Shown here: piece by piece, positions 4,294-56,525 of the stretch | Layout: each line of letters begins with the position of its first letter | Numbering within the stretch: position 1 is the stretch's first letter | Source of the DNA: Sulfurimicrobium sp. | GTDB lineage: Bacteria; Pseudomonadota; Gammaproteobacteria; Burkholderiales; Sulfuricellaceae | Direction of reading: 5' to 3' | NCBI GenBank assembly: GCA_030652035.1 | Contig: JAUSBJ010000009.1 | Location: 186,001 to 250,000, forward strand | DNA length: 64,000 nucleotides | The notes under the pieces: generated by a model | Database searches by the model: none | The model's input: the letters and a program-made list of their open reading frames with translations, nothing else | What the model was told of the DNA's origin: nothing | Made by a program: the position numbers and the translations under genes

Positions 4294-4330
4294 TTTATTG
4301 TCCTAGGGAGTTCAATGTTGTTTTCCGGAA

Positions 4331-5413: not shown

Positions 5414-5435
5414 TGTATTCTCCACGGTTGCTGCT

Positions 5436-7471: not shown

Positions 7472-7510
7472 GATGATCCCCGATTTCTTTCTCTGGTTGA
7501 TAACAGGCGA

Positions 7511-8863
<1,353 letters not shown>

Positions 8864-32112: not shown

Positions 32113-33819
32113 TTAAAACAGGAAATACCGTTGCGCCATGGGCAGCACGGCAGCCGGTTCGCATACCAGCAACTCGCCGTCCGCACGCACGGCATAGGTT
32201 TCGGGGTCCACGTCGATGTGCGGCGTGGCGCTGTTGTGCACCATGTCGCGCTTGCCGATGTTGCGGGTGTTTTTCACCGCCATCAGCGGCTTGGACAGGC
32301 CCAGTGCCATGACGGCAGGGTTGTTCAGCGCGGCCTGCGAAACGAAGGTGACGGACGATTTGAGCCCGCCGCCGAAGCTGCCGAACATGGGGCGGTAGTG
32401 CACCGGCTGCGGCGTCGGGATCGAGGCGTTGGGGTCGCCCATGGCGGCCGCCGCAATCATGCCGCCCTTTAAAATCAGGCTGGGCTTGACGCCGAAAAAG
32501 GCCGGCTTCCACAGCACCAGGTCGGCCAGCTTGCCCACTTCCAGCGAACCCACCAGATGCGAGATGCCGTGCGTGATGGCGGGATTGATGGTGTATTTTG
32601 CGATATAGCGCTTGACCCGGAAGTTATCGTTGCGCGCCGGGTCGCCCTGCAGGGTGCCGCGCTGCAGCTTCATCTTGTGCGCCGCCTGCCAGGTGCGCAG
32701 GATGACCTCGCCGACCCGGCCCATGGCCTGGGAATCGGAACTCATCATGGAGAATACGCCGAGATCGTGCAGGATGTCCTCGGCGGCGATGGTCTCGCGC
32801 CGGATGCGGCTTTCCGCGAAGGCGATGTCCTCGGCGATGGAGGCATCCAGATGGTGGCACACCATCAGCATGTCGAGATGCTCGTCGATGGTGTTCACGG
32901 TGTAGGGCATGGTCGGGTTGGTGGAGCTGGGCAGCACGTTGGGCATGGCAGCCGCCCGGATGATGTCCGGCGCATGGCCGCCGCCCGCGCCCTCGGTGTG
33001 GAAGGTATGGATGGTGCGCCCCTTGAAGGCGGCCAGCGTGGATTCCACGAAGCCGGACTCGTTCAGGGTGTCGGTATGGATCGCAACCTGCACGTCCATT
33101 TCCTCCGCCACAGAAAGGCAGTTGTCGATGGCGGCGGGCGTGGTGCCCCAGTCCTCGTGCAGCTTCAGCCCGATCACGCCGGCCTCGACCTGCTCCCTGA
33201 TGGGCGCGGGCTGGCTGACATTGCCCTTGCCGAGGAACCCCAGGTTCATGGGAAAGGCGTCCGCCGCGCGCAGCATGGAGTGGATATGCCACGGCCCCGG
33301 CGTGCAGGTGGTGGCATAAGTGCCGGTGGCAGGCCCCGTGCCGCCGCCCAGCATGGTGGTCACGCCGCTCATCAGCGCTTCCTCGATCTGCTGCGGGCAG
33401 ATGAAGTGGATGTGGCTGTCGATGCCGCCTGCGGTGACGATCATGCCCTCGCCGGCGATGATTTCCGTGCCCGCGCCGATGGGAATGGTCACACCCGGCT
33501 GGATATCCGGATTGCCCGCTTTGCCGATGGCCGAAATATAGCCCTGCTTGATGCCGATATCGGCCTTGATGATCCCGCTCAGCGCATCCACGATCAGCGC
33601 GTTGGTGATGACGGTGTCCGCGACTTCCGCTGACACACGCTGGCTTTGGCCCATGCCGTCGCGAATCACCTTGCCGCCGCCGAATTTCACTTCTTCGCCG
33701 TAGAGGGTGTAGTCCTTCTCCACCTCGATCCACAGCTCGGTGTCGGCCAGCCGGACGCGGTCGCCGACAGTGGGCCCGAACATTTCGGCATAGGCCTGGC
33801 GGGAAATTTTCTGGTTCAT
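32113..33819 (-). CDS. ureC: Urease alpha subunit (catalytic)
   Basis: UreC hydrolyses urea to ammonia and carbamate at a di-nickel site. The protein is 568 aa from the ATG at 33819 ([20 protein letters not shown]); the 17-codon upstream extension is non-conserved. Nickel ligands are visible: H136 and H138 in GGIDSHIHF, carbamylated K219 in [12 protein letters not shown], and H248 and H274. The flap cysteine is C321 in LMVCHHLD. All key residues are intact, so the enzyme should be active. It lies 25 bases after the HupE-type gene. Confidence 0.98.
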
Positions 33820-33844
33820 GGCATCGTCCCGGTTAGCATGAAGA

Positions 33845-34405
33845 TCAGGATAAGAAAAGCGTTGCGGCAAGCGCAGTCATGCCGGCACCCAGCCAGCGGT
33901 CACGATTGGCGCGCTGCAGCACTTTCCCCAGCACAAGGCCGGTGCCCAGCAGCAATGCGGTCGCAGCCAGAAAACCGATCACATAAGTCTGCGGCGCAGT
34001 GGCGACAGGCAATTCCATGCCATGGGCAATCCCGTGCCAGACCGCGAACAGGGCGGCGATTGCAGCCTGCGCGGCCAGCGGCAGGCGCATGGCCAGAGTC
34101 GCCAGCAAGCCTGCTGCCAGTGCGCTTGCGGCAATCGCGGATTCCATGAATGTCGGCTGCAAGCCTTCAAAGCCGAGCAGCCCCCCGCCGATCATCCCGG
34201 CGAGAAACGCAGCGGGGGGAAGCCAGAACTTTTTGCCGGTATTGCGCGCAGCCCACACGCCAACCGCGATCATGGCCAGAATGTGGTCCAGCCCGCTGAA
34301 CGGATGGATAAAGCCGGACCACAGGCCCGAGCCGGCATGACCTGGATGTGCCCAAGCGCTGACGGGCATCAGTACGAGCAGTGCCAACAAAATGCTTTTT
34401 TTCAT
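33845..34405 (-). CDS. HupE/UreJ-type membrane protein, putative nickel permease
   Basis: The protein is 186 aa: a cleavable signal peptide (1-19, ending AWA), then [30 protein letters not shown] and about six transmembrane segments. The HPxxGxDHxxxM signature and a second conserved His in [12 protein letters not shown] are the HupE/UreJ hallmarks. Members sit in hydrogenase or urease operons and are thought to take up nickel or cobalt. Its position between ureB and ureC supports nickel supply for urease. Confidence 0.93.
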
Positions 34406-36210: not shown

Positions 36211-36903
36211 TTATACGGAAAGCAATTCCCGGATGCCGTCCTTCTCCATGTCCGCGCCGGGGCCCTGGCGGATGATTTCGCCGCGTTCCATGAGCAGGTA
36301 CTGATCAGCCAGCGAGCGGGCAAAATCGTAATACTGCTCGACCAGCAGGATGGCCATGCTGCCCTCCTCCGCCAGGCTGCGGATGGCGCGTTCGATGTCC
36401 TTGATGATGGAAGGCTGGATGCCCTCGGTGGGTTCGTCCAGAATCAGCAGCCTGGGGCCAAAGGCCAGCGCGCGGCCGATGGCCAATTGCTGTTGCTGCC
36501 CGCCGGAGAGGTCGCCGCCGCGCCGTTTCATCATCTGTTTCAGCACCGGGAACATCTCGAAAATACGCTCCGGAATGGGCGTGCCGGCGGGCCGGGTGGC
36601 GAGGCCCATGCGCAGATTTTCCTCCACCGTCAGGCGCGGGAAGATTTCCCTGCCCTGCGGCACATAACCGATGCCCGCCTTGACGCGGGCGTGCGATGCC
36701 GCATGGGTGACGTCCTTGCCGTCGAACACGATGCTGCCGCTCTTGGCCGGCACCAGCCCCATCAGGCATTTGAGAAGGGTAGTCTTGCCCACGCCATTGC
36801 GTCCCAGCAGCGTGGTGACCTGGCCGGTTGGCGCGGTGAAGCCTACATTGCGCAGGATATGGCTGCCACCGTAATACTGGTTGAGATTTTCTACTGTCAG
36901 CAT
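36211..36903 (-). CDS. urtE: Urea ABC transporter ATP-binding protein UrtE
   Basis: This LivF-like ATPase of the high-affinity urea importer is 230 aa. Walker A is GRNGVGKTTLLK (about 34-45), the ABC signature is DLSGGQQQQLAIGRAL (about 134-149) and Walker B is LLILDEPTEGIQPSI. The start is two bases after the urtD stop. The motif QYYGGSHILRNV near the start and the C-terminal gene position separate it from UrtD. Confidence 0.96.
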   Translation of the reverse strand: MLTVENLNQYYGGSHILRNVGFTAPTGQVTTLLGRNGVGKTTLLKCLMGLVPAKSGSIVFDGKDVTHAASHARVKAGIGYVPQGREIFPRLTVEENLRMGLATRPAGTPIPERIFEMFPVLKQMMKRRGGDLSGGQQQQLAIGRALAFGPRLLILDEPTEGIQPSIIKDIERAIRSLAEEGSMAILLVEQYYDFARSLADQYLLMERGEIIRQGPGADMEKDGIRELLSV

Positions 36904-36905
36904 GC

Positions 36906-37724
36906 TTACCGCCCCAAATATACTTCGATGACGCGCGGATCGGCCTGCACGTCGGCCAGATTTCCTTCTGCCAGCACCGATCCCTCGTGTAGCACGGTCA
37001 CTTTTCCGCCCAGTTGCTCAATGAAGGCCATGTCATGCTCGACCACCACCAGGCTGTGTTTGCCCGCCAGGGATTTGAACAGCTCGCCGGTACGCTCGGT
37101 TTCGTCGTCGGTCATGCCGGCCACCGGCTCGTCCAGCAGCAGCAGCCTGGGTTCCTGCATCAGCAGCATGCCGATCTCCAGCCACTGCTTCTGTCCGTGC
37201 GAAAGCAGGCCGGCAAGGCGGTCGGCTTCATGGTCGAGGCGGATCAGCCTGAGCGTGTCCGAGATTTTGTCGCGACCTTCCTTGCCCAGCCAGGCAAACA
37301 GGCTGGTGAAGGCGCGCTTGTCCATTTTCATCGCCAGTTCCAGGTTCTCGAACACGGTATGGTTTTCGAAAATGGTCGGTTTCTGGAACTTTCGACCGAT
37401 GCCGGCATGGGCGATTTCCGGCTCGGTCATGCGCGTGAGGTCGATCGTCTGGCCGAAAAAGCAGGTGCCGGAGTCCGGCCGCGTTTTGCCGGTGATGACG
37501 TCCATCATGGTGGTCTTGCCTGCCCCGTTGGGGCCGATGATGCAGCGCAGCTCACCCGCGTCGATGGTCAGGCTGAGATTGTTCAGCGCCTTGAAGCCGT
37601 CGAAGCTGACTGAAATATCGTCCAGGTAGAGGACAACCTTGTGGGAGATGTCCAGGCCCGGCTGGAGCATGTGCCCCGTGGCGGGCGCTGAACCATCCCA
37701 ATGGCTCTCGATTTTTGTGTTCAT
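36906..37724 (-). CDS. urtD: Urea ABC transporter ATP-binding protein UrtD
   Basis: This LivG-like ATPase is 272 aa. Walker A is GPNGAGKTTMMD (about 62-73) and the signature region is LSHGQKQWLEIGMLLMQEPRLLLLDEPVAGM, with Gln-Lys in place of the commoner Gly-Gln order, a usual UrtD/LivG variation. The first 30 residues are an extra N-terminal extension. The start overlaps the urtC stop (ATGA). Confidence 0.96.
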   Translation of the reverse strand: MNTKIESHWDGSAPATGHMLQPGLDISHKVVLYLDDISVSFDGFKALNNLSLTIDAGELRCIIGPNGAGKTTMMDVITGKTRPDSGTCFFGQTIDLTRMTEPEIAHAGIGRKFQKPTIFENHTVFENLELAMKMDKRAFTSLFAWLGKEGRDKISDTLRLIRLDHEADRLAGLLSHGQKQWLEIGMLLMQEPRLLLLDEPVAGMTDDETERTGELFKSLAGKHSLVVVEHDMAFIEQLGGKVTVLHEGSVLAEGNLADVQADPRVIEVYLGR

Positions 37725-38827
37725 GCCTGTCCTTTTTTAGTCCAGCGTTTCCACAGGCCGACCACGCCTTCCGGCAGCCACAGCGTGACCATGACGAACA
37801 GCGCGCCCAGGAAGAACAGCCAGTATTCAGGGAAGGCCACGGTGAAGTAGCTCTTGGATAAATTGACGATGGCCGCGCCGATGATCGGCCCGATGAGGGT
37901 GCCGCGCCCGCCCACCGCGACCCAGATGGCGATCTCGATGCCATTGGCGGGCGACATTTCCGAGGGATTGATGATGCCCACCTGCGGCACGTACAGCGCA
38001 CCGGCCACGGCGCACAACACGGCGGACAAGGTCCACACGAAGAGCTTGAAGTGCAGCGGGTTGTAGCCGATGAACATGACGCGCGACTCGGCGTCACGGA
38101 TCGCCGCCAGCACCCGGCCGAACTTGGAGGTCACCAGGTAGCGCCCGAGCAGCAGGGTCAGCATCAGCACCAGCGCGGACAGGCCGAACAGGATCACGCG
38201 CGTTTCCGGCGAAGTGATGTCGTAGCCCAGGATGCGCTTGAAATCGGTGAAGCCGTTGTTGCCGCCGAAGCCGGTTTCGTTGCGGAAGAAAAACAGCATG
38301 GCGGCGAAGGTCAACGCCTGGGTGATGATGGAAAAATACACCCCCTTGATACGTGAACGGAAAGCAAAGTAACCGAAGATATAAGCCACCAGCGCGGGCA
38401 CGACCAGCACCAGCACAATCGACCAGAGGATGGAATCGGTCCCGGCCCAGTACCAGGGCAGCTCCTTCCAGTCGAGGAAGACCATGAAATCCGGCAGGTG
38501 CGAGTGATAGGAACCGTCGGTGCCGATCTGGCGCATCAGGTACATGCCGAAGGCGTAGCCCCCCAGGGAGAAGAACACGCCATGGCCGAGCGAGAGTATC
38601 CCGGCATAGCCCCAGATCAGGTCCATGGCCACCGCCACGATGGCGTAGCACATCAGCTTGCCGCCCAGGGTGATGACGTAGTTCGAGACATAAAACGGGC
38701 TGTCCGTGGGCATGAACAGGTGCAGCGCGGGCATGACCACCAGGGTGATGAGGGCAAACAGCGCCATGGCGATCCAGCCGCTGCGCGGCATGGCGCTGAG
38801 AAAACGGATGACGAAGGGCGTTCTCAT
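37721..38827 (-). CDS. urtC: Urea ABC transporter permease UrtC
   Basis: This LivM-like permease is 368 aa with about nine hydrophobic segments. Markers are GYAGILSLGHGVFFSLGGYAFGMYLMRQIG and AIRDAESRVMFIGYNPLHFKLFVWTLSAVLCAVAGALYVPQVGIINPSEM. WVAVGGRGTLIGPIIGAAIVN and the Lys-rich end follow. It overlaps urtB upstream and urtD downstream by four bases each, implying coupled synthesis. Confidence 0.96.
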   Translation of the reverse strand: MRTPFVIRFLSAMPRSGWIAMALFALITLVVMPALHLFMPTDSPFYVSNYVITLGGKLMCYAIVAVAMDLIWGYAGILSLGHGVFFSLGGYAFGMYLMRQIGTDGSYHSHLPDFMVFLDWKELPWYWAGTDSILWSIVLVLVVPALVAYIFGYFAFRSRIKGVYFSIITQALTFAAMLFFFRNETGFGGNNGFTDFKRILGYDITSPETRVILFGLSALVLMLTLLLGRYLVTSKFGRVLAAIRDAESRVMFIGYNPLHFKLFVWTLSAVLCAVAGALYVPQVGIINPSEMSPANGIEIAIWVAVGGRGTLIGPIIGAAIVNLSKSYFTVAFPEYWLFFLGALFVMVTLWLPEGVVGLWKRWTKKGQA

Positions 38828-40407
38828 GATTCGACAAACCTTCCTTTGAGAGCGAACAGACCCTGGGGCCGCTTTTGGATAAAGATGATGATGAACACCA
38901 GCACGGCGATCTTGGCGATCACCGCACCGGCCCAGCCTTCAAGGAACTTGGTCACGATGCCCAGGCCCAGCGCAGCCCAAACCGCACCCGCGAGCTGGCC
39001 GACGCCGCCCAGCACCACCACCATGAAGGAATCGACGATATAGCCCTGGCCCATGTCAGGGCCGACGTTGGCAATCTGCGACAGCGCCACACCGCCCAGG
39101 CCGGCAATGCCCGCACCCAGGCCGAAGGCCAGGGTGTCGATGCGCCCGGTTGGCACGCCGACGCAACCTGCCATGGGCCGGTTTTGCGTCACGGCGCGAA
39201 CGAACATGCCGAGACGGGTGCGGTTCATCAGCACCCACACCAGGGCCAGCACGAACAGGGTGAAGCCGATGATGACGATGCGGTTCCACGGCAGCACCAT
39301 GCCGGCCAGTACTTCCACGCCGCCGGACATCCAGGACGGGTTGGCCAGTTCAACATTCTGCGCGCCGAACAGCACGCGTGCCGCCTGGATCAGGATCAGC
39401 GAAAGCCCCCAGGTGGCCAGCAGGGTTTCCAGCGGACGGCCATAGAGCTTGCGGATCACCGTGCGTTCCAGCGCCATGCCGACCAGCGCCGCGGCAAGGA
39501 ACGCGGCCGGGACGGCGGCCACCACATACCAGTCGAGATAAGCCGGGAAATAAGTGCGGAAAATGCCTTGCGTGAAATAGGTGGCATAGGCGCCCACCAT
39601 CAGCAGCTCGCCGTGCGCCATATTGATCACGCCCATCACGCCGTAGGTAATCGCCAGACCCAGCGCCGCCAGCAGCAGGATGCTGCCGAGCGAGAGGCCG
39701 GAGAAAATCTGGCCCACGGTTTCGCCCAGCGCCAGGCTGGATTCAATCGCCTTGAGCGAGGTTTTTGCCGCCTTGCGCACCCTTTCGTCCGGCTCGTTAG
39801 TCGCATCGAGCAACGGCAGCAGCAGATTTTTTGCGTTGGCGCTGGCACTGTCCGCCAATGCCTCCACGGCCGTCAGGCGCAGGCCTGCGTCGGGGCTGCC
39901 GAGGCTGGATTGGGCGTGGGCCAGTTTCAGAAGCGCTTTGATTTCCGGGTCGCCTTCCTTGGCCAGCGCCCGCGCCAGAACGGGCACCAGCTCGATGCCG
40001 GCATTGCTTTGCAGTTCCCGTGCGGCGGCAAGGCGCACCGCGCGATCCGGGTTAAAGAGACGCAGCGCGGCAATGGCATTGCTCAATTCAGAGCGGATGC
40101 GATTGTTGATGGTGATCGCGTCATAGCTCTCCGGCGCAGGCTGGATGAGCGCGCCGCTGGCGGCATCGACAGGCTTCTCGCCGTCCAGCAGGTACACAGT
40201 GTCGCCCGAGACGAACAGCGCGTCCTCGGACAAAGCCTTCAGCACCCGTGCAGCGTCCTTGTCGGCACTGGCAGCCAGTTGCTGAATGGCGGCAATCTTG
40301 TCGTCTGATTCATCCGCAGCCAGTTGCTTGACCACGGCGGGGTCGAGCGCAGCCATGGCAGGCAGGGCGCAGAACCAGAGGAGCAGGGAAAATAGTATGG
40401 ATTTCAT
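38824..40407 (-). CDS. urtB: Urea ABC transporter permease UrtB with N-terminal periplasmic domain
   Basis: This LivH-like permease is 527 aa from the ATG at 40407; the upstream 65 codons of open frame belong to a repeat. A signal peptide (1-19, ending AMA) is followed by about 200 residues of helical, HEAT-like periplasmic sequence (RAVRLAAARELQ, AGLRLTAVEALADSAS). This long N-terminal domain is typical of proteobacterial UrtB. The permease core starts near residue 225 (IFSGLSLGSILLLAALGLAITYGVMGVINMAHGELLMVGAY). It lies downstream of urtA across a stem-loop-rich spacer. Confidence 0.96.
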   Translation of the reverse strand: MKSILFSLLLWFCALPAMAALDPAVVKQLAADESDDKIAAIQQLAASADKDAARVLKALSEDALFVSGDTVYLLDGEKPVDAASGALIQPAPESYDAITINNRIRSELSNAIAALRLFNPDRAVRLAAARELQSNAGIELVPVLARALAKEGDPEIKALLKLAHAQSSLGSPDAGLRLTAVEALADSASANAKNLLLPLLDATNEPDERVRKAAKTSLKAIESSLALGETVGQIFSGLSLGSILLLAALGLAITYGVMGVINMAHGELLMVGAYATYFTQGIFRTYFPAYLDWYVVAAVPAAFLAAALVGMALERTVIRKLYGRPLETLLATWGLSLILIQAARVLFGAQNVELANPSWMSGGVEVLAGMVLPWNRIVIIGFTLFVLALVWVLMNRTRLGMFVRAVTQNRPMAGCVGVPTGRIDTLAFGLGAGIAGLGGVALSQIANVGPDMGQGYIVDSFMVVVLGGVGQLAGAVWAALGLGIVTKFLEGWAGAVIAKIAVLVFIIIFIQKRPQGLFALKGRFVES

Positions 40408-40452
40408 GGGATTTCTTGGTGGATGCGCATCCGGCATGGATGTTTTGGGCAC

Positions 40453-40574
40453 TCTAACCCCCCTCAATCCCCCCTTGTGCGAGCATCCGCTACGCGGATT
40501 GCCTGCTTGACCCACTTCAGGGGGGAAGCCGTTTGTCTCCTCCCCTGACAAGGGGAGGCCGGGAGGGGTTTGAG
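40453..40574. repeat. Stem-loop-rich spacer between urtA and urtB
   Basis: CCTCCCCT-GACA-AGGGGAGG (40539-40558) is a perfect 8-bp hairpin. ATCCGC-TAC-GCGGAT near 40484-40498 is another. The outer arms TAACCCCCCTCAATCCCCCC (40454-40473) and GGAGGCCGGGAGGGGTTTGAG (about 40554-40574) can partly pair. The sequence style is that of dispersed CCCCTC repeats. Because urtA encodes the binding protein needed in excess, a processing or attenuation role is plausible but unproven. Confidence 0.7.
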
Positions 40575-40624
40575 GTGGCGTTTCAACCAACCGGATGCGC
40601 AATCTCTAAACGATGGAAGGAAAA

Positions 40625-41893
40625 TTACATGCTGTCAGGCACATCCTTTTTCTTGTCGTTGCCGGGAATGTAGGGGCTCCAGGGCTGTGCGCGAACCGGG
40701 CCCTTGGTCTTCCACACCACGTTGAACTGGCCGTCCGCCTTCACTTCGCCGATGAATACCGGCTTGTGCAGGTGGTGATTCTTCTCGTCCATCTTCACCG
40801 TGAAACCGGACGGCGCCTTGAACGTCTGGCCGCCCATCGCTGCGATCACCTTGTCCACGTCGGTGGACTTGGCTTTCTCGACGGCCTGCTTCCACATGTG
40901 GATGCCGACGTAGGTCGCTTCCATCGGGTCGTTGGTCACGACTGAATCGGCCTTGGGCAGGTTCTGCTTCTTGGCCCAATCCTTGTACATGGCGATGAAC
41001 TTGGTGTTGTCCGGATTCTTGATCGACTCGAAGTAGTTCCAGGCTGCGAGATGGCCCACCAGCGGCTTGGTGTCCACGCCGCGCAGCTCTTCTTCACCCA
41101 CCGAGAAAGCCACCACCGGCACATCGGTCGCCTTCAGGCCCGCATTGCCCAATTCCTTGTAGAAAGGCACGTTGGAGTCGCCATTGATGGTGGAAACCAC
41201 GGCGGTCTTCTTGCCTTCAGCGGAGAACTTCTTGATCTTGGCGATAATGGTCTGGTAATCGCTATGGCCAAACGGGGTGTACTCTTCCATGATGTCGGCG
41301 TCAGCCACGCCCTTGGATTTAAGGAATGCGCGCAGGATCTTGTTGGTGGTGCGCGGATAAACATAATCGGTACCCAGCAGCACGAAACGCTTGGCCGAAC
41401 CGCCGTCCTTGCTCATCAGGTATTCGACTGCCGGAATGGCTTGCTGATTGGGCGCAGCACCGGTGTAGAACACGTTCTTCTCCAGCTCCTCGCCCTCGTA
41501 CTGAACCGGGTAGAACAGCAGGCCGTTCAGTTCCTTGTAAACCGGCAGCACCGACTTGCGGGAGACTGATGTCCAGCAACCGAAAGTGACTGCAACCTTG
41601 TCCTTGCTCAGCAACTGGCGGGCCTTTTCGGCAAACAGCGGCCAGTTCGAAGCCGGGTCCACCACCACCGGCTCCAGCTGCTTGCCCATCACGCCGCCGG
41701 ACTTGTTGATCTCGGCGATGGTCATCAGCGCGGTTTCCTTCAGCGCGGTTTCGGAAATAGCCATGGTGCCGGACAGGGAATGCAGAATGCCGACCTTGAT
41801 GGTGTCGGCGGCGAGTGCGGAAAGGCTGGTCAAACCGGCGGCGGCCATGGCCACCGTGAGCGTGGCGACCTTGATGAAATTGCGACGTTGCAT
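40625..41893 (-). CDS. urtA: Urea ABC transporter substrate-binding protein UrtA
   Basis: The 422-aa periplasmic protein binds urea with high affinity and delivers it to UrtBC. The N-terminus MQRRNFIKVATLTVAMAAAGLTSLSALAA is a signal with a twin-arginine-like motif (RRNFIK). The mature part starts DTIKVGILHSLSGTMAISE and includes FGCWTSVSRKSVLPVYKELNGLLFYPVQYEGEE, a UrtA hallmark. AAGGAG lies seven bases before the ATG. It is the first gene of the urea cluster. Its upstream region is present a second time at 43652-43778. Confidence 0.97.
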   Translation of the reverse strand: MQRRNFIKVATLTVAMAAAGLTSLSALAADTIKVGILHSLSGTMAISETALKETALMTIAEINKSGGVMGKQLEPVVVDPASNWPLFAEKARQLLSKDKVAVTFGCWTSVSRKSVLPVYKELNGLLFYPVQYEGEELEKNVFYTGAAPNQQAIPAVEYLMSKDGGSAKRFVLLGTDYVYPRTTNKILRAFLKSKGVADADIMEEYTPFGHSDYQTIIAKIKKFSAEGKKTAVVSTINGDSNVPFYKELGNAGLKATDVPVVAFSVGEEELRGVDTKPLVGHLAAWNYFESIKNPDNTKFIAMYKDWAKKQNLPKADSVVTNDPMEATYVGIHMWKQAVEKAKSTDVDKVIAAMGGQTFKAPSGFTVKMDEKNHHLHKPVFIGEVKADGQFNVVWKTKGPVRAQPWSPYIPGNDKKKDVPDSM

Positions 41894-42002
41894 GGAAGGC
41901 TCCTTGTATGAATTGAGTTGATCGGACTGATGGGGTTTCCAGTCGCACTCAGATTACGAGGTGGAGCCTTGCGGAGGAATACGTCAGATGACGTATAGGG
42001 GG
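41876..42002. repeat. 127-bp direct repeat, copy 1: urtA promoter region
   Basis: This segment holds the first six codons of urtA, its SD and about 109 bases upstream. It recurs at 43652-43778 at equal length with roughly a dozen mismatches by eye and no gap. The most conserved part is the far end (GCGGAGGAATACGTCAGATG onward), which is identical. The two copies flank a 1.65-kb segment with a winged-helix gene and a vapBC pair. Confidence 0.9.
41979..41996. promoter_or_regulatory. 18-bp perfect palindrome upstream of urtA
   Basis: ATACGTCA-GA-TGACGTAT is a complete 8-2-8 inverted repeat (only the two central bases unpaired), centred about 94 bases before the urtA start codon. The length and symmetry are those of a dimeric activator site. 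It is identical in the second copy at 43755-43772. The nearby LuxR-type response regulator (44984-45919) is a candidate binder. Confidence 0.7.
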
Positions 42003-43651: not shown

Positions 43652-43778
43652 GAAATTGCGACGTTGCATGGAAGGTTCCTTGTGTAAGTAAAGTGGATCG
43701 GACTGATGGCGTTTCCAGTCGCAGCCAGATTACGAGGAGGAGCCGTGCGGAGGAATACGTCAGATGACGTATAGGGGG
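43652..43778. repeat. 127-bp direct repeat, copy 2 of the urtA promoter region
   Basis: Same length and direction as 41876-42002. On the minus strand it keeps the SD (AAGGAAC), ATG and first six urtA codons (M-Q-R-R-N-F), followed by GAT CGA and a stop, so it can make only an eight-residue peptide. The region 43586-43915 holds only this copy and the promoter area of the next gene. Confidence 0.9.
43755..43772. promoter_or_regulatory. Second copy of the ATACGTCA palindrome
   Basis: Identical 18 bases to 41979-41996. It lies about 150 bases upstream of the plus-strand gene at 43916 and no longer has a full gene on its minus side. Perfect conservation while neighbouring bases differ suggests either recent duplication or continued selection. 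Confidence 0.6.
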
Positions 43779-43915: not shown

Positions 43916-44938
43916 ATGGCCAAACCCTCAAAGTTTGAAACTCTCGTTCTTACGGTTACCCAAGACGTCGTTAATCATCCGCGCGACCTTACGCGACATT
44001 ATGCTGAACGATTTGGAATTTCAAGGGTCGCGGCCAACCGATATATCCAGAAACTTGAAACTGAAGGCTGGATCGCACGAAGCGGACCATCAACACACCC
44101 CGTATTTAGCCCTGGCTACAAGCGACGAGCTGCACATCTTTACAAGTTACAAGGACTGGAAGAGCACGTAGCGTGGGAGCGCGACTTTAAGCCCTACTTT
44201 AATCTCTCTCCAAATGTACAAAACATCGTGAATCTCGGCTTTACGGAGATGCTGAACAATGCAATCGACCATTCAGCTGGCGATTCGGCCTTCGTTTGGG
44301 GTAGCCAAAATGAAGACGTATTCATCCTAATCATTTCTGATGATGGCGTAGGTATCTTTGCAAAAATCGCTGCAGCCCTTAATCTGCCGGATATGCGCCA
44401 AGCCCTATTTGAGTTATCGAAAGGAAAACTGACAACAGACCCTAGCAAGCATACTGGTGAGGGGGTATTTTTTACTTCTCGCATGTTCGATTCATTTGAG
44501 ATTGGCGCCAATGGTTTGCAGTTTAACCACCGAGAAGATTCACCTAATGATTGGCTACATGAAGCAAAAGGTGTTTTCAGCAAAGGTACTGCTGTATACA
44601 TGCAAATCGCACTTAAATGTGAACGTAACGCATCTGATGTGTATGCGCAGTTCACAAATGCTCCAGAAGATTATGACTTTTCTAAAACCATAGTACCTAT
44701 GAAGCTGGCCACATTTGGGGATGAACAATTGGTTTCCCGCTCACAAGCTAAGCGACTAATAGCAAGATTTGATCGCTTCAAAACTGTAATCTTAGACTTC
44801 GATGGCGTTCAAGAAATAGGACAGGCTTTCGCTGATGAGCTATTTCGCGTTTATGGAGCCAGTCACCCCGATGTTGAATTATTACCGAAGAACATGTCTG
44901 CGCAAGTAGAGCGAATGTGGCTCCGCGCTGTCTCGTAG
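43916..44938 (+). CDS. HTH + GHKL ATPase + STAS-like (DUF4325) single-chain regulator
   Basis: The protein is 340 aa. Residues 8-60 form a winged helix (HYAERFGISRVAANRYIQKLETEGWI). Residues 90-250 carry a GHKL ATP fold: N box FTEMLNNAIDHS (109-120), G1 box SDDGVGIF (141-148) and G2 box HTGEGVFFTSR (179-189). Residues 255-335 match STAS-like DUF4325 (ILDFDGVQEIGQAFADELFRVY). There is no phosphoacceptor His domain, so it resembles an anti-sigma-type kinase and its antagonist joined to a DNA-binding head. It is AT-richer than its neighbours, suggesting transfer. Function unknown. Confidence 0.8.
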   Translation: MAKPSKFETLVLTVTQDVVNHPRDLTRHYAERFGISRVAANRYIQKLETEGWIARSGPSTHPVFSPGYKRRAAHLYKLQGLEEHVAWERDFKPYFNLSPNVQNIVNLGFTEMLNNAIDHSAGDSAFVWGSQNEDVFILIISDDGVGIFAKIAAALNLPDMRQALFELSKGKLTTDPSKHTGEGVFFTSRMFDSFEIGANGLQFNHREDSPNDWLHEAKGVFSKGTAVYMQIALKCERNASDVYAQFTNAPEDYDFSKTIVPMKLATFGDEQLVSRSQAKRLIARFDRFKTVILDFDGVQEIGQAFADELFRVYGASHPDVELLPKNMSAQVERMWLRAVS

Positions 44939-44983: not shown

Positions 44984-45919
44984 CTACCCGATCCCCGCAA
45001 CCTTCCCGATAGCCAGATTGGCCGCTGCCGTGCGCGTTTCCACACCGAGCTTCTCGAATACATGTTCCAGGTGCTTGTTCACCGTGCGCGGGCTGGTGCC
45101 GAGGATGTCGCCGATGTCCTTGTTGATCTTGCCCTTGGTGACCCAGTAGAGCACTTCCGCCTCGCGTGCAGTGAGGCGGAAGGCGCTGATCAGGGCTTCG
45201 ATGGTGGCGGCATGGTTTTCCTCGTGCAGTACCAGCAGCCATTCTCCTTCGTGGCCCAGGCTGCTGGGATCGTGCAGGGTGGCGAGCAGGCGGCGGCCAT
45301 CCATATTCACGAGGACCGGGGGTTCGCGGTTTTCCCTGGCGGCCAGTTGCGCTTCCTCGATCCAGTCCAGGAGGCGCGGGGGAGAGTGTTCGGTATCGAG
45401 GTCGAAATAGGCCTTGAGCAGTTTGCGCGCCAGCGGGGTCTGCCATACCAGGCGGCCATCGCCGCGGCGCACGGCGGCGGTGGCCTGGCCGAAGGCGTCG
45501 AGGGCGCTGCGGGCCTGCTTCATCTGGCGGGCGTTCTGCATGTGGGCGAATATGCGGGCCAGCACTTCCTGCGGGCGGATCGGCTTGGTGACGTAGTCGG
45601 CTCCGCCGGCGGCGAAGGCGGCCACCACGTGCTCGGTTTCGGTCAGGCCGGTCATGAAGATGACGGGAATGTGCTGGGTGGCGAAATCCGCCTTCATGGC
45701 CCGCGCTACCTGGAAGCCGTCCATGCCGGGCATCATGGCATCCAGCAACATGACGTCGGGCCGGCTCTGGCGCGCCCGCTGCAGGGCGCTTTCGCCGTTG
45801 GTGGCCACCAGCACCGTGTAACCGGCTTCATCGAGGGCATCGTGAAGCAGGGAGAGGTTTTCCGGCACATCGTCCACGATCAGGACGATGTCCGAATTGA
45901 TCCGGTCAATCGGTGTCAT
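44984..45919 (-). CDS. REC-LuxR family response regulator
   Basis: The protein is 311 aa: an N-terminal receiver with phosphoacceptor D60 in VMLLDAMMPGMDGF and the conserved Lys in YVTKPIRPQE, a middle part of about 110 residues, and a C-terminal LuxR-type HTH (LTAREAEVLYWVTKGKINKDIGDILGTSPRTVNKHLEHVFEKLGV, about 250-295). The gene overlaps the end of the hybrid kinase gene by 14 bases, so the two are a cognate pair. A dimeric LuxR regulator could bind the ATACGTCA palindrome before urtA. The gene is convergent with the HTH-GHKL gene, 45 bases away. Confidence 0.92.
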   Translation of the reverse strand: MTPIDRINSDIVLIVDDVPENLSLLHDALDEAGYTVLVATNGESALQRARQSRPDVMLLDAMMPGMDGFQVARAMKADFATQHIPVIFMTGLTETEHVVAAFAAGGADYVTKPIRPQEVLARIFAHMQNARQMKQARSALDAFGQATAAVRRGDGRLVWQTPLARKLLKAYFDLDTEHSPPRLLDWIEEAQLAARENREPPVLVNMDGRRLLATLHDPSSLGHEGEWLLVLHEENHAATIEALISAFRLTAREAEVLYWVTKGKINKDIGDILGTSPRTVNKHLEHVFEKLGVETRTAAANLAIGKVAGIG

Positions 45920-48900
45920 GCTGTTCCTGGCCCTTGCGCAGTATTTCCTTCATCGCTTCAAACTGGAACTGGCGCGCCAGCTGGCGCATCACTTCGACAA
46001 ATTCGCTGTGAGCAACATCGAGCCGCTCGATTTCACCCAGCTTGTTGAGGATGCCCCGCACGTAGCCGAGGTCGATCTGCTCTTCCAGTGCTTGCAGGTA
46101 TTCTTCGGGAGGATAGTTTAATCGCACCGGGGCCGAAGCGGGAGCGGGCTCTTGGGGCGGGGCTTCGGCCCGGACCCATTCCAGGTCGAGGTGCCGCCCG
46201 ATCCAGTCGAGCAGGGCGTCCATCCGCACCGGCTTGGTGATGAAGTTTTCACTGGCGAGGTTCACGTCATTTTCAGCGCCTTTTTCGAAGGCGTTGGCGG
46301 AAATGACGGCGATTTCGGCATCGGTCATGCCGCCCTCGTGGATGCGGCGTATGGTTTCCCAGCCGTCGATGCCGGGCATGGCCAGATCCATGAAGATCAG
46401 GTGGGGGCGAAAGCGCGGGATCAGGTCCAGGCATTCCTGGCCAGAATTCGCCTGGGCCAGTTGGAAGCCGAGCGGCTCCAGCATGCTGACCAGCAACTCA
46501 CGGTCGGTTTTTTCATTATCGACGATGAGGATGCGGCGGCGCACGCCGACGTAGCCGATGGGGCGCACGCGGGCGGCGCCTTGCCCGCTCTGTGTCGCCG
46601 CCGCGAGCTGGGGCAGAAAGAGACGGATGCGGAAGCGGCTGCCTTGGCCCGGCGTGCTTTCCACCGTCAGCTCGCCGCCCATCACGTCAGTCAGCATTTT
46701 TGCAATGGTCAGGCCGAGCCCCGTGCCCCCTGTGGCGCCGACATGGGCGGCGCGGCCGCGCGAGAAGGGCTCGAAAATGCGCTCCAGCTCCTCCGTCGCG
46801 ATGCCGGGGCCGCTATCCTCGATCTCGAAGGTGGCCATCTCGCGCTGGTATTTGAGGCGGAACACGACGCCGCCACGGGTGGTGAATTTGACCGCATTGC
46901 CAATAATGTTGATCAGGATCTGGCGCAGGCGTCGCTCGTCCGCCCGCACTTGCGCCGGCAACTCACTCTGGGGTTGGTAGCTGAAATCGATGCCCTTGTT
47001 GCGTGCCTGGAACTCGAACATGGCCACGATCTGCTGCACGAATTCAGGGAAATCCAGCGCCCGCACGTCCAGGCTCAGCTTGCCGCTCTCGATGCGGGCG
47101 ATGTCCAGGGTGCTCTCTATCAGGGAGAGCAGGTGGTCGCCACTGCGATGGATCACGCTCACCGCCTGGCGGCGGTTGGGTGGAATGGCCTCGTCGCCGT
47201 CGAGGATCTGGGCATACCCGAGGATGCTGTTCAGGGGGGTGCGCAGTTCGTGGCTGATGGCGGTGATGTAGCGGCTCTTGGCCTGGTTGGCCTGCTCGGC
47301 GGCCAGCTTGGCCTTCTGCAGCAACTCGTCGGTGCGGCGGTGCGAGTCGATTTCATGCAGCAGCAAGCGGGTCTGCCGGCTGGATTCCTCCTGCGCCACC
47401 TGGCGGCTGCGGTTGGCGAGCACCACCCACCAGGCAATGACGCCGGTGACCACCAGCAGGGCCGCCGAGGTGCGCGCGAACACATCGCGCAGATGGGGCA
47501 GCAGGTAGGCCTCGCCATCCTTGAGGGCCAGCATCTCCTGGTAATAGAGCAGGCCGATGAACAGCCCCAGGAGGGACACGATCCCGATCATCATGAGCAG
47601 GTAATGGCCCAGCCCCGCTTCCAGATAGGGCCGGGCAGATGCGGGCAGCAGGCGTTCGAGCAGGGCGGTCCACTGGTCGACGAGACGCGCGCGGGGCTTG
47701 CACTGGTCGTGGCAACGGGCGTCGAGCGTACAGCACAGGGAACAGATGTTGCCCTGGTAGGCCGGGCAGCGGGCCATGTCCTCCCCTTCGTAGTCCTTGC
47801 CGCAGAGGGTGCAGGCATGGGTGGCGCCAGCCAGGGCATTCCCGGCCCCGAGGTCCACGGGCTGGCGGGCGATGTAGTAGCGCCCTTTGGTCAGCCAGGC
47901 GATCAGGGGCGAACACACCAGGGCAGCGATCAGGGCGATGAAGATGGCGAAGGGCTGTATTTCAGGGCCGAACAGGCCGACGTAGGCCAGCACAGAAAGC
48001 AGCGAGGCGATGCCCATGGCGCCGATGCCAACCGGGTTGACATCGTACAGGTAGGCGCGGCGGAACTCGATGCCGTGCGGCGACAGACCGAGCGGCTTGT
48101 TGATCACCAGATCCGCAACCACTGCCATCATCCAGGCCACGGCCACGTTGGAGTAGAGCCCCAGCACCCGGCCCATGGCCTGGAACAGGTCGAGCTCCAT
48201 CAGCATCAGCGCGATCAGGGTGTTGAACACCACCCACACCACCCGCCCCGGATGGCTGTGGGTGATGCGCGAGAAGAAATTGGACCAGGCCAGTGAGCCG
48301 GCATAGGCGTTGGTGACGTTGATCTTGAGCTGGGACACCACGACGAACACCACCGTGGCGGCCACCGCCCAGCCCGGATTGGAAAAAACATAGCCATAGG
48401 CCACCAGGTACATCTGGTTGGGATCGACGGCATGCTCCTGCGAAATCCCGTGGCGGATGGCGAGATAGGCAAGAAAAGCGCCCCCAAGCATCTTGACCAC
48501 GCCGGGAATCACCCAGCCTGGCCCGCCGATCAGCACCCCGGCCAGCCAGCGCTTGCGGTTTTGCGTGGTGCGCTCCGGCATGAAGCGCAGGTAATCCACC
48601 TGTTCGCCCATCTGGGTGATGAGCGCCAGCGCCACGGCCAGCGCCGCGCCGAACAGGTGGACATCGAATCCGCCAGCCGGATTTTCGCTGCCGCCATGGC
48701 CGAGCAAACCGGCAAAGGCCTGCGGCTCCTTGATCAGCACGAACAGATAAGGCAGCAGCAACATCAGCAGCCAGACCGGCAGGGTGAGGGTTTGCAAACG
48801 GCTGATGGTGCTGATGCCGTGGGTCACCAGCGGGATCACCACCAGCGCGCAGATCAGGTAGCCCCAGGCAGGCGGGATGCCAAAACCCAGCTCCAGCGCA

Positions 48901-49349
48901 TAGGCCATGATGGCCGCCTCGAGGGCGAAGAATATGAAGGTGAAGGAGGCGTAGATGAGCGAGGTGACGGTGGAGCCGAGATAGCCGAAACCGGCGCCGC
49001 GCGTGAGCAGGTCCATATCCAGGCCATGAAGAGCCGCGTAGCGGCTGACCGGGATGCCGGCGAGAAAGATGATGATGCCCGCCACCACGATCGCCCAGGC
49101 GGCGTTGAGGAAACCGTAATTGACCAGCAGGGTGGCGCCCACCGCCTCCAGCACAAGGAATGAGGCAGCACCGAAAGCGGTGTTGGCGACCTGCATCTCC
49201 GACCATTTGCGGTAGCTGCGCGGGGTGAAACGTAGCGCGTAGTCTTCCAGCGTTTCGTTCGCTACCCAGGTGTTGTAGTCGCGGCGCACCTTGAAAACAT
49301 GCTGGGCAGCCGGGTTATCCTTGTTCTGGGGGGCTGGACCTGTGCTCAT
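45906..49349 (-). CDS. NCS1 permease-like sensor fused to a hybrid histidine kinase
   Basis: The protein is 1147 aa from the ATG at 49349. Residues about 55-490 form a complete NCS1 nucleobase/allantoin/hydantoin permease-like domain with about 12 membrane segments. Residues 513-550 hold eight cysteines (CTLCGKDYE...CPAYQGNICSLCC...CHDQC), a probable metal-binding knuckle. Two more membrane helices follow (about 582-605 and 628-646). The kinase has H700 in ISHELRTPLN, an N box at IIGNAVKF, GTGLGLTIAK, and a C-terminal receiver with D988 in LIFMDLAMPGIDGW. The final 90 residues bind nothing recognisable. The layout parallels CbrA-type transporter-coupled kinases. Ligand unknown; the urt-ure neighbourhood suggests urea or a purine breakdown product. 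Confidence 0.92.
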   Translation of the reverse strand: MSTGPAPQNKDNPAAQHVFKVRRDYNTWVANETLEDYALRFTPRSYRKWSEMQVANTAFGAASFLVLEAVGATLLVNYGFLNAAWAIVVAGIIIFLAGIPVSRYAALHGLDMDLLTRGAGFGYLGSTVTSLIYASFTFIFFALEAAIMAYALELGFGIPPAWGYLICALVVIPLVTHGISTISRLQTLTLPVWLLMLLLPYLFVLIKEPQAFAGLLGHGGSENPAGGFDVHLFGAALAVALALITQMGEQVDYLRFMPERTTQNRKRWLAGVLIGGPGWVIPGVVKMLGGAFLAYLAIRHGISQEHAVDPNQMYLVAYGYVFSNPGWAVAATVVFVVVSQLKINVTNAYAGSLAWSNFFSRITHSHPGRVVWVVFNTLIALMLMELDLFQAMGRVLGLYSNVAVAWMMAVVADLVINKPLGLSPHGIEFRRAYLYDVNPVGIGAMGIASLLSVLAYVGLFGPEIQPFAIFIALIAALVCSPLIAWLTKGRYYIARQPVDLGAGNALAGATHACTLCGKDYEGEDMARCPAYQGNICSLCCTLDARCHDQCKPRARLVDQWTALLERLLPASARPYLEAGLGHYLLMMIGIVSLLGLFIGLLYYQEMLALKDGEAYLLPHLRDVFARTSAALLVVTGVIAWWVVLANRSRQVAQEESSRQTRLLLHEIDSHRRTDELLQKAKLAAEQANQAKSRYITAISHELRTPLNSILGYAQILDGDEAIPPNRRQAVSVIHRSGDHLLSLIESTLDIARIESGKLSLDVRALDFPEFVQQIVAMFEFQARNKGIDFSYQPQSELPAQVRADERRLRQILINIIGNAVKFTTRGGVVFRLKYQREMATFEIEDSGPGIATEELERIFEPFSRGRAAHVGATGGTGLGLTIAKMLTDVMGGELTVESTPGQGSRFRIRLFLPQLAAATQSGQGAARVRPIGYVGVRRRILIVDNEKTDRELLVSMLEPLGFQLAQANSGQECLDLIPRFRPHLIFMDLAMPGIDGWETIRRIHEGGMTDAEIAVISANAFEKGAENDVNLASENFITKPVRMDALLDWIGRHLDLEWVRAEAPPQEPAPASAPVRLNYPPEEYLQALEEQIDLGYVRGILNKLGEIERLDVAHSEFVEVMRQLARQFQFEAMKEILRKGQEQHDTD

Positions 49350-49500
49350 GTTCAATGACGCCCCTTGCTTAAATTCTCTGGAAACTGATATTCAATTTTG
49401 GCCAAGTCGGCCCAAAAGCCGCGGCACACCGGGTTGAATCGCACAAGATTCATGAGGCAAGCTGAAACGGATGCCTTTTGTATTGAACTGAAGCTCAACG

Positions 49501-53503: not shown

Positions 53504-53795
53504 CATTTGATTCCGTTTTGCTTTCGTGCCCATTTCCTTCCGCTTATGGCCGGTGCGATCCGTATTGCAGTCCGTGTTGGAATCATTTAACCTGAATTTG
53601 AGTTTGGTTAACCCAATGACATGGATGTGAACAATTCCCCCCCCATGCGGGTCTCTGAGCCTCAACCATTTGAGGCGAGTTGCCTGATCGTATCTTAAAG
53701 TGGGAAGTGGGACGATACTCGACTTTTGTGCTGAGAAGTGTGGCCGTTGCCTGGGTTTCAAAGGGCAGGGTGGAAACGAACCTAAGGAGGTCGCA

Positions 53796-56525
53796 TTGCA
53801 GGAACCCGCATTTCCCGCCGACGAAGCGCATCGAATTGAGGTGTTGCGCGCGCTGCATATTCTGGATACGCCTCCAGAGGAGCGCTTTGACCGCATCACC
53901 CGCGTGGCCCAGCGCTTGTTTGATGTGCCTGTTGCCCTGGTTTCCCTGGTGGATGCAGACCGGCAATGGTTCAAATCCTGCCAGGGGCTGAGCGCAAGCG
54001 AGACGCCGCGCTCCATTTCCTTCTGTGGTCACGCCATTCTCAGCAGTGACACCCTGGTGGTTGCCAATGCCCTGGACGACCCGCGTTTTGCCGACAATCC
54101 GCTGGTTACCGGGGCTCCGCACATTCGCTTTTATGCCGGACGTCCGCTCAAGGCCGCCGATGGTAGCCGGCTTGGGACCTTATGCATTATTGACTACAAA
54201 CCCCGGCACTTCTCGCCCGACATGCTGGCCTCGCTGGCGGATCTCGCGGGCAGCGTGGAACGGGAACTGAATCTGCACATGCTGGCGGAAGCAAACGTCA
54301 GTATCGATGCAGGCCGCCAACTATTGCAGGCAGTGCTGGAGAGCGTCCTTGATGGCATTATCACCATCAACGCTCAGGGCATCATGGCATCGTTCAATCG
54401 TGCCGCCGGGCGTATTTTCGGTTATACCGCGGAAGAAGTGATCGGGCGTAATGTCATGATGCTCATGCCGGAGCCTTATCACAGCGAGCATGATGGCTAC
54501 CTGCACAATTTTCTTAGCACCGGCAAGAAAAAGATTATTGGAATCGGCCGTGAAGTCACTGGCCTGCGCAAGGATGGATCTACCTTTCCCATGGAGCTGG
54601 CTGTCAGCCAAATGGAGGTTGACGGAGAGTCCATGTTTACCGGCATTGTGCGTGACATTACCGACCGCAAGAGAGCCGAAGCGGCCATCAAGGCCAGCGA
54701 GACACGTATCCGAACGCTGGTCGACACCATAGTCGACGGCATTATCGTGATTGATGCCAAAGGCAGCATCCAGACGCTGAACCCGGCGGCAGTGAGGCTG
54801 TTCGGTTATGCGCCGGATGAAGTGCAGGGGAAAAACGTCAAGATGCTGATGCCGGAACCCTATGCCCATGAGCACGATGGCTACCTGCACAACTACCTGT
54901 CCACCGGAAAGAAAAAGATCATCGGAATCGGCCGTGAAGTCACCGGCCTGCGCAAGGATGGATCGACTTTCCCCATGGAACTGTCGGTCAGTGAAATGGA
55001 GGTTGACGGCGAGCGCCTGTTCAACGGTATCGTGCGCGACATCACCGAGCGCAAGAAAACGGAGCGTTTGAAAAGCGAATTTGTATCCACGGTGAGTCAC
55101 GAGTTGCGCACGCCGCTGACCTCCATCCGGGGGTCGCTGGGCCTGGTGGCGGGCGGCGTGGCGGGCGAATTGTCGCCCCAGGCCAAGAGCCTGATCGATA
55201 TCGCCTACAAGAATAGCGAGCGATTGGTGGGGCTGATCAGCGACTTGCTCGATGTGGAAAAAATCGAGTCGGGCAAGATGAAATTCGACCTCACGCCATT
55301 GCGCCTGATGAATATGATCGATCAAAGCGTGCAGGCCAACCAGGGTTATGCGCAGCAGCATGCTGTTCGCTTCGAGGTGATGCAGCGGGTTCCAGAAACC
55401 ATCCAGGCGGTGGTTGATGAGATGCGTTTGATGCAGGTGCTCTCCAACCTTTTGTCCAATGCCGTGAAGTTTTCATCCCAGGGTGGCGTAGTCGAGATTG
55501 CCGTGACGCGGAACAGCGGTCGTATTCGCGTCAGTGTGCGGGATCATGGACCGGGTATCCCGCTGGAATTCCAGACACGCATATTTCAGAAATTCTCGCA
55601 GGCGGATTCCTCCGACACTCGGCAAAAGGGCGGCACCGGACTGGGTCTCAGCATTTCCAAGGCAATTGTCGAGCAGATGCATGGAAAGATCGGTTTCGAG
55701 ACCCGGGAGGGCGAGGGGGCAACCTTCTGGTTCGAGTTGGCGGAGTGGAGCGGTGAACCCGAGAACCTTGCTCCGGCAAGCTGTGTGGCGTCTCAGCAAA
55801 TATCCAATATCCTGATTTGTGAGGATGATCCGGATGTGGCTACCTTGCTGGCGCTGATGTTGCGAGAGGCCGGCTACGAGCCGGATATCGTACATGATGC
55901 CGAACAAGCGAAGGTGATGCTGGCAAGCCACAGCTACGCTGCCCTCACGCTGGATCTCAAGCTCCCGGGGCAGAGTGGGGCGGAGTTGATTCGCGAACTG
56001 CGGGCCGATCCGGTCACGGCGAATTTGCCCATCGTGGTGGTTTCCGGAAAAATGGAGCAGGGCAAGGCGGAAATCAGTGGCGGTTTCAGTGTCTCGGACT
56101 GGCTGGGGAAACCTATCGAGCAGCAGCACCTGCTTGAAGCGCTGCACAGCGCCATCCATCGGCTGGGAGATAATCGGGCGACAATCCTGCATGTGGAGGA
56201 CGATCCGGACCTGCGCCAAGTGGTGGCTACCTTGTCGCGTGACATTGCCGATTGTGATTTTGCGGCCACGGTCGCCGAGGCGGCGGACAAGATCGCGGCA
56301 CAGCGATATGATTTGGTCATCCTGGATCTGGGCATGCCGGATCAATCCGGGTGGCATGTGCTGGAATATCTGCGGCAATGCCGGCCGCAGCCGCCGGTGC
56401 TGGTATTTTCCGGACAGAAATTGTCGAAGGAAGAGTCTGCTCGAGTCGCTTCTGTGCTGGTCAAGTCTCAAACCAGCAATGCTGAGCTGCTTGAGACGAT
56501 CCGGGCGCTGGTGCGGAAAATGTGA
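53796..56525 (+). CDS. Hybrid histidine kinase: GAF-PAS-PAS-HisKA-HATPase-REC-REC
   Basis: The protein is 909 aa, starting at TTG 53796, chosen because a perfect AAGGAGG lies five bases upstream and no ATG is near. GAF is about 15-165 (IEVLRALHILDTPPEERFDRITRVAQRLFDV, GRPLKAADGSRLGTLCIID). PAS1 (about 178-290) and PAS2 (about 303-419) are near-copies, each with MPEPY..EHDGYLHN and GREVTGLRKDGSTFPMEL. H435 is in TVSHELRTPLTS. The ATPase boxes are SNLLSNAVKF and GGTGLGLSISKAIVEQ. Receivers carry D720 (LTLDLKLPGQSG) and D844 (VILDLGMPDQSG). The PAS motifs match the FixL heme-PAS pattern, so oxygen or redox sensing is possible. No membrane segment: cytoplasmic. Confidence 0.92.
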   Translation: MQEPAFPADEAHRIEVLRALHILDTPPEERFDRITRVAQRLFDVPVALVSLVDADRQWFKSCQGLSASETPRSISFCGHAILSSDTLVVANALDDPRFADNPLVTGAPHIRFYAGRPLKAADGSRLGTLCIIDYKPRHFSPDMLASLADLAGSVERELNLHMLAEANVSIDAGRQLLQAVLESVLDGIITINAQGIMASFNRAAGRIFGYTAEEVIGRNVMMLMPEPYHSEHDGYLHNFLSTGKKKIIGIGREVTGLRKDGSTFPMELAVSQMEVDGESMFTGIVRDITDRKRAEAAIKASETRIRTLVDTIVDGIIVIDAKGSIQTLNPAAVRLFGYAPDEVQGKNVKMLMPEPYAHEHDGYLHNYLSTGKKKIIGIGREVTGLRKDGSTFPMELSVSEMEVDGERLFNGIVRDITERKKTERLKSEFVSTVSHELRTPLTSIRGSLGLVAGGVAGELSPQAKSLIDIAYKNSERLVGLISDLLDVEKIESGKMKFDLTPLRLMNMIDQSVQANQGYAQQHAVRFEVMQRVPETIQAVVDEMRLMQVLSNLLSNAVKFSSQGGVVEIAVTRNSGRIRVSVRDHGPGIPLEFQTRIFQKFSQADSSDTRQKGGTGLGLSISKAIVEQMHGKIGFETREGEGATFWFELAEWSGEPENLAPASCVASQQISNILICEDDPDVATLLALMLREAGYEPDIVHDAEQAKVMLASHSYAALTLDLKLPGQSGAELIRELRADPVTANLPIVVVSGKMEQGKAEISGGFSVSDWLGKPIEQQHLLEALHSAIHRLGDNRATILHVEDDPDLRQVVATLSRDIADCDFAATVAEAADKIAAQRYDLVILDLGMPDQSGWHVLEYLRQCRPQPPVLVFSGQKLSKEESARVASVLVKSQTSNAELLETIRALVRKM

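Follow-up and report, generated by a model that had tools for sequence, protein, structure and literature searches.

The window, the whole stretch of 64,000 nucleotides that was analysed, carries a hybrid sensor kinase gene close to urea transporter and urease genes, and the locus raises the question of what this kinase senses and which genes it controls. The kinase gene lies at 45906–49355 on the minus strand (ORF and Pfam matches); translation from the TTG at 49355 gives 1149 residues, and the ATG at 49349, chosen in an earlier note on this DNA, is the other candidate start. Its 3′ end overlaps by 14 nt the gene for a partner response regulator with REC and LuxR/GerE domains (44984–45919, minus strand; assigned from ORF, Pfam and neighbourhood). 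On the same strand lie urtA, encoding the binding protein of a urea ABC transporter (40625–41893; TIGR03407 over cut-off), urtB, urtC, urtD and urtE (36211–40602) and ureC for the urease alpha subunit (32116–33870) and ureG (30154–30774); haem genes of the hemY, hemX, hemD and hemC kinds are located upstream of the kinase. Judging from the sequence, kinase and regulator probably constitute a two-component system with a transporter-derived receptor ("transceptor") for urea and, in a sister clade, for short-chain amides. A PAS-type hybrid kinase at 53700–56525 on the plus strand stands outside this system.

Architecture and NCS1 descent of the kinase

The chain comprises, in order, an NCS1-derived 12-helix domain, an eight-cysteine knuckle, two more helices, HisKA, HATPase and REC. 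The last three score far over the Pfam cut-offs and are encoded on the minus strand: HisKA at 47082–47282 (residues 692–758, with the phospho-acceptor His702), HATPase_c at 46614–46940 (residues 806–914) and the receiver domain at 46206–46532 (residues 942–1050, with Asp990). In a 160-row alignment, consisting of the window protein and 159 loci, His702 is found in 159 rows and Asp990 in 156, the remaining rows being gaps; with these three domains, the His and the Asp, the protein is a hybrid histidine kinase. Residue positions and Pfam bore out the earlier description of eight cysteines within 38 residues and a hybrid kinase in one chain. That description did not include an extra transmembrane helix pair, TM13-14, which a predicted model places at residues ~582–640 (47436–47612, minus strand) and which appears in the model to run into the signalling helix.

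A Pfam scan of the first 690 residues of the window kinase returned nothing over cut-off, and neither the window protein nor any row of a 22-row alignment of relatives matched PF02133 at E<0.1; for the latter reason we call the domain at residues ~24–500 (47856–49286, minus strand) NCS1-derived and do not file it as an NCS1 transporter. Its descent from NCS1 permeases is evident from both profiles and structure. Profile–profile comparison with 20 NCS1-type permeases (19 ORFs from the loci of a PF02133 search plus the permease of locus L215, itself over the PF02133 cut-off) gave 99.7% and E 2.5e-26. For an AlphaFold model of residues 20–670 (pTM 0.76, mean pLDDT 76.7), the best PDB matches in Foldseek were Mhp1 (1.3e-9) and CodB (9.1e-9), with the next family at 8.4e-7. 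VIA-align of the model ranked CodB first (Z 32.5, rmsd 3.3, 390 aligned) and gave Z scores of 28.1 (rmsd 3.9, 425 aligned), 26.9 and 24.2 for three Mhp1 structures; the best non-NCS1 family reached Z 23.4, tied with the lowest Mhp1 row. The 12-helix NCS1 permease-like domain of the earlier note is thus confirmed by profile match, AlphaFold model, Foldseek and VIA-align, and is invisible to Pfam. A search of PDB sequences with the kinase-family profile gave no match at E 0.01, and one with the nearest stand-alone permease gave a single weak, unrelated match; the sequence link to Mhp1 and CodB was reached through the wider NCS1 alignment. No SLC5 family matched the window kinase in Pfam, and NCS1 structures rank first for the model.

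The nearest stand-alone permease seen, in locus L215, shares 32% identity and matches PF02133. Behind it, in a region at 3949–8373 of that locus, come genes for a carbon-nitrogen hydrolase and a Peripla_BP_5 binding protein, a hint that this kind of permease already handled amide-like compounds. The home genome, about 90% complete, contained no stand-alone PF02133 match.

Candidate ligand pocket and cysteine knuckle

Pocket residues were mapped by alignment to Mhp1 and CodB, at about 15% identity, using the binding residues reported for these transporters (PMC4195764, PMC9379551). According to this alignment, the ring-stacking W117 corresponds to F142 of the window kinase, W220/F204 to L245 and Q121 to E146, and the Asn aligned with Mhp1 N318 seems to be retained as N349. 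S312 and T313 of Mhp1, which we take to be its sodium ligands through the Na2 hydroxyls, align with K344 and I345 (K-I/V across the family), so that both the ring-stacking aromatics and the Na2 hydroxyls of NCS1 appear to be absent. The L215 permease has Arg at the position of the sodium-site lysine, and in the sodium-independent ApcT, too, a lysine occupies this site. K344, Q248, E251, Q252, N346 and N349 are present in all 160 rows and E146 in 159, while position 142 is F in 147 rows and L in 13, and position 245 is L in 154, Ile in three and Met in three.

The NCS1 substrate residues, to which the earlier note had pointed, therefore gave a divided answer, with the Asn kept and the stacking aromatics replaced. 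This bears on the possibility that the kinase senses a purine, a hydantoin or another ring compound upstream of urea, urt and ure being induced as the end of the pathway. Such a ligand would agree with the NCS1 derivation of the domain and with the Asn at the N318 position, kept in 160/160 rows, but it is made less likely by the replacement of the stacking Trp and the second aromatic (by F/L and L/I/M, respectively), and genes for urea and short-chain amides, the classes searched, already cover 66 of the 71 sampled loci; we consider it unlikely. Turning to a small carbonyl-diamide or amide ligand, members of the urt/ure-type and of the fmd-type agree at most of the compared pocket positions, so that both types may recognise a single class of small ligand. 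Positions 244, 247 and 249 in TM6 are A, T and M in the urt/ure-type and S/A, A/V and I in the fmd-type, and could tune specificity.

The eight-cysteine knuckle, delimited by alignment and model, is encoded at 47700–47813 on the minus strand (residues 515–552). Its cysteines, at 515, 518, 530, 538, 541, 542, 548 and 552, fill a stretch of exactly 38 residues in the pattern C-x2-C-x11-C-x7-C-x2-CC-x5-C-x3-C. All eight are conserved in 160/160 rows, and in 55/55 of the first set; in the named set of loci (see below) this conservation arises partly by construction, since the cysteine motif was one fetch pattern, and the sampled set, from order and phylum genome searches, was fetched without it. 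The knuckle matched nothing in Pfam even at E 5, and its best lead among PDB sequences was nigerythrin (E 0.74). When a knuckle profile was run over 299 genomes, with up to 20 candidates per genome scored, matches were found in 43 genomes; 42 matches, with E 7e-19 or better, were all at places of this kinase family. Five matches outside the family, with E from 2e-4 to 9e-3 in frames of 32–184 aa, one of them with a stop, were attributed to chance.

Modelled on its own (pLDDT 81, pTM 0.55), the knuckle consists of a hairpin, a second hairpin and a helix. Its best structural matches are for the most part fingers of the RING, FYVE, PHD and ZZ kinds, but none is strong (Foldseek E no lower than 0.22; Z no higher than 3.6), and the likeness to two-zinc cross-brace fingers is accordingly weak. 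In the model of the kinase, a beta-rich knuckle with short helices occupies the STAC position. From these models, the knuckle may hold two structural zinc ions, and zinc binding as such seems on balance likelier than not, the earlier note having allowed for Zn or an Fe-S cluster and a redox input. Alternatively, the main input might come from the knuckle, which would respond to redox state, iron or zinc while the permease domain served only as an anchor; the invariance of its cysteines in 160/160 rows speaks for this, but the permease pocket is equally invariant, the fold hints weakly favour structural zinc fingers, and the nearby genes are urea/amide genes, leaving this option very improbable. 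We prefer a ligand bound in the NCS1-derived domain.

Urea and amide genes and a palindrome upstream of urtA

Gene neighbourhoods were compared in two sets of loci: 80 named loci (L056–L135), found by peptide patterns, and a sampled set of 79 out of 95 family places at E<1e-100 in order and phylum samples, with the own genome left out. Of the other 16 places, some are on short contigs and some are closely related to loci already in the set. The sets were kept separate because one locus occurs in both (L058 = L157), and counts retain loci with at least 7 kb on each side, dropping 23 of the 80 named and eight of the 79 sampled loci. Marker genes were urtA, UrtA-like SBP, ureC, FmdA and AmiE; the FmdA and AmiE representatives were verified by Pfam (PF03069 and PF00795). 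Some of the flank ORF clusters are probably antisense ORFs, and two of seven scanned representatives had no Pfam match.

Urea/amide genes were located within 10.5 kb of the kinase at 66/71 sampled and 46/57 named loci (72/79 and 58/80 without the flank filter), and markers were absent within this range from 5/71 and 11/57, respectively. For controls we took the best non-family hybrid kinase, one each from 20 of the same genomes, and found 0/20 near marker genes. Homologues thus mostly stand beside nitrogen-compound genes of the urt, ure, fmd or ami kinds, as the earlier note had expected, and the urea part of its ligand proposal gains support from these counts; the purine/hydantoin part is made less likely by the replaced aromatics. 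The regulator is encoded on the same strand within 3.5 kb of the kinase at 66/71 sampled and 55/57 named loci. Azonexus hydrophilus DSM 23864 (L067) and Uliginosibacterium gangwonense DSM 18521 (L099) are examples of environmental strains in which kinase, regulator and urtA are near neighbours.

The tight linkage to urt and fmd transporters would also suit a sensor domain that reads transport flux or nitrogen status via the partner ABC transporter, the permease fold serving as a scaffold, and a review deals with sensing of protein activity (PMC6978683). Pocket positions are among the invariant ones, which argues weakly against it, and we regard such indirect sensing as improbable. Direct sensing of urea, or of formamide-like amides in the sister clade, is in our estimation rather likely. 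In an 86-row tree, urt/ure and fmd labels cluster, with five changes over 30 urt/ure and 30 fmd rows; when the 26 rows with other labels are retained, urt/ure needs 15 changes and fmd nine. The specificity of the window kinase is not clean, since its nearest tree rows adjoin both cluster kinds: its seven-row group contains five rows with both, one with fmd and the window itself. No FmdA match was found in the home genome (~90% complete), which makes urea the likelier ligand there.

A palindrome, TACGTCAGATGACGTA, is situated at 41980–41995, ~94 nt ahead of the start codon of urtA, and is the proposed operator. A second perfect copy at 43756–43771 does not count as an independent site, because it lies inside a duplicated fragment (127 nt) of the urtA promoter. 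Counts of dyads in front of urtA-type genes picked out TACGT-N6-ACGTA, present in 26 of the 79 non-redundant regions; in base-shuffled copies no such dyad occurred more than once. The consensus TACGYCA-N2-TGRCGTA, with up to two mismatches, is present in 42 of the 51 kinase-linked urtA upstream regions of the discovery set (29 from the sampled set, 21 from the named set and that of the window) and, upstream of fmd-type SBP genes, in 13 of 28 regions and absent from 15, against base-shuffled means of 0.15 and 0.2, respectively. Removal of redundant regions had reduced the urtA set from 64 to 51 and the SBP set from 46 to 28, and too-short stretches were dropped as well.

Because the motif was discovered on the same 51 and 28 regions, separate tests weigh more. 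In 20 kinase-less genomes, hand-picked from the best rows of a UrtA search and not random, the palindrome was found upstream of urtA in 0/20, and the five of these that belong to the same order had best matches with 4–5 mismatches. We also analyzed 20 kinase genomes in which urtA lies tens to hundreds of kb away or on another contig. The palindrome precedes the distant urtA in 4/4 genomes with a urt/ure-type kinase (G661, G204, G049 and G651, all of family f49) and in 0/16 with fmd-type kinases only, a comparison whose urt/ure and fmd labels were assigned after the loci were seen; in two kinase-less genomes of family f49 (G234, G294) it was found in 0/2. Across the 159 loci, 61 sites have at most one mismatch, and for 53 of them the closest labelled genes within 1.5 kb include one of the urtA type; of the other eight, two are just upstream of the kinase. 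No site with up to one mismatch occurred in 378 kb of control loci. The home genome contains two perfect sites, both in the window, and none for the reversed pattern; with one mismatch allowed, three sites compare with five for the reversed pattern, and 6 of 100 shuffles of the window reach three sites at up to three mismatches. In the home genome only near-perfect matches are therefore meaningful, and the two perfect ones go back to one duplication.

Between regulator and urtA, a stretch of 127 nt with the promoter and the first codons of urtA is repeated directly (91%), at 41876–42002 and 43652–43778; the two copies bracket an HTH protein and a MazE-like/PIN toxin–antitoxin pair, and the arrangement appears from the sequence to be an insertion or duplication. 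A STAS-like DUF4325 protein with weaker HTH and HATPase_c_2 matches is encoded at 43916–44938, convergent with the regulator; when it was searched for in the 159 kinase loci, no ORF matched, and it was left out of the proposed system.

We consider it quite likely that the partner regulator binds the palindrome. In the mechanism that we propose, a small carbonyl-diamide or amide would sit in the NCS1-derived domain, where the invariant lysine would fill the sodium site, and a rocking motion of this domain would reach the kinase by way of the knuckle and TM13-14. Phosphate would move from His702 to Asp990, or straight to the partner LuxR-type regulator, which would bind TACGYCA-N2-TGRCGTA and switch on urtABCDE, with urease downstream, or an fmd-type transporter together with formamidase. 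In Burkholderia, control of urt and ure has been reported for NtrC (PMC5491218), and urea regulation therefore need not use this kinase.

Distribution of the family and relation to known systems

The fusion is no chance product: full-length relatives occur in 52 of 398 phylum-wide genomes (rows with E<1e-100); the tally at E 0.001, 67/398, includes weak matches resembling stand-alone permeases. At least 596 stretches of the family exist among bacterial genome contigs, and the kinase was found in none of eight genomes of the same genus or family. UrtA scores over cut-off in 50 of the 52 kinase genomes and in 85 of the 346 others, counts that were read by hand from two listings, with three of the 50 inferred from E-values, and that support but do not carry the case. 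Two loci (L181 and L188) have shorter frames of 894 and 899 aa without an adjacent regulator and form a long-branch pair in the tree. Another locus (L241, G119:C12) has a frame of 750 aa that is 42% identical in the kinase core and lies near a receiver like that of this regulator; the frame has no permease-domain match and is possibly a sister kinase without the sensor.

In PLSDB, 505 plasmid records match the kinase, 498 of them over 80% of its length; 338 are from Klebsiella and 302 of the 505 are typed conjugative, and some matches of 3.6–4.1 Mb resemble chromosomes. One Klebsiella plasmid (L311) carries kinase, urtABCDE and formamidase between insertion sequences. Among the records listed, plasmid annotation of the kinase is mostly "ATP-binding protein", and in some cases ArcB-like sensor or hybrid kinase. 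In a table of the 2009 genome paper on Dechloromonas aromatica, UrtA is accompanied by a histidine kinase of 1131 aa and a CheY-like receiver of 308 aa (PMC2907700), and we infer that these two are members of this system.

The comparison with CbrA-like kinases made in the earlier note holds as a functional parallel: CbrA has a transporter domain fused to a histidine kinase, and CbrA and CrbS combine the two in one chain, as here (PMC13022988). A palindromic site has been reported for CrbR, the LuxR-type regulator paired with CrbS (PMC5715377), a precedent for the palindrome of a LuxR-type regulator of a transporter-kinase. CbrA and CrbS differ in having an SLC5 domain in place of NCS1, a STAC four-helix bundle where the model here shows the eight-cysteine knuckle and helix pair, and histidine or acetate in place of urea/amide genes. 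Ks-Amt5 is likewise a transporter turned receptor, fused to a kinase and with a nitrogen compound as signal (PMC5764959); its transporter domain is of the Amt family, and the abstract and outline of that paper mention no cysteine domain. Mhp1 and CodB resemble the N-terminal domain in fold (VIA Z 24.2 to 28.1 and 32.5) and profile homology, but are kinase-free transporters with the Na2 hydroxyls and ring-stacking aromatics that appear lost here. AmiC-AmiR and NtrBC are reported to control the same kinds of amide and urea genes (PMC13209695, PMC5491218), but through a soluble ligand sensor with an RNA antiterminator or through a general nitrogen signal, with no membrane transporter-kinase. Among the literature matches listed, no study dealt with an NCS1-kinase fusion or with a two-component system of this type devoted to the response to urea, and the palindrome and its link to the kinase are new here.

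We see an even chance that these proteins represent a widespread, unnamed class of urea receptors across Pseudomonadota, in which a sodium-site-disabled NCS1 sensor, a two-metal knuckle with a helix pair (not STAC) and a kinase go together with an operator of their own before urea or formamide transporters, also on Klebsiella plasmids, including at least one that is typed conjugative. With this system, another transporter family and another coupling element join the known cases in which a transporter has become a kinase sensor, and the palindrome makes its regulon directly testable.
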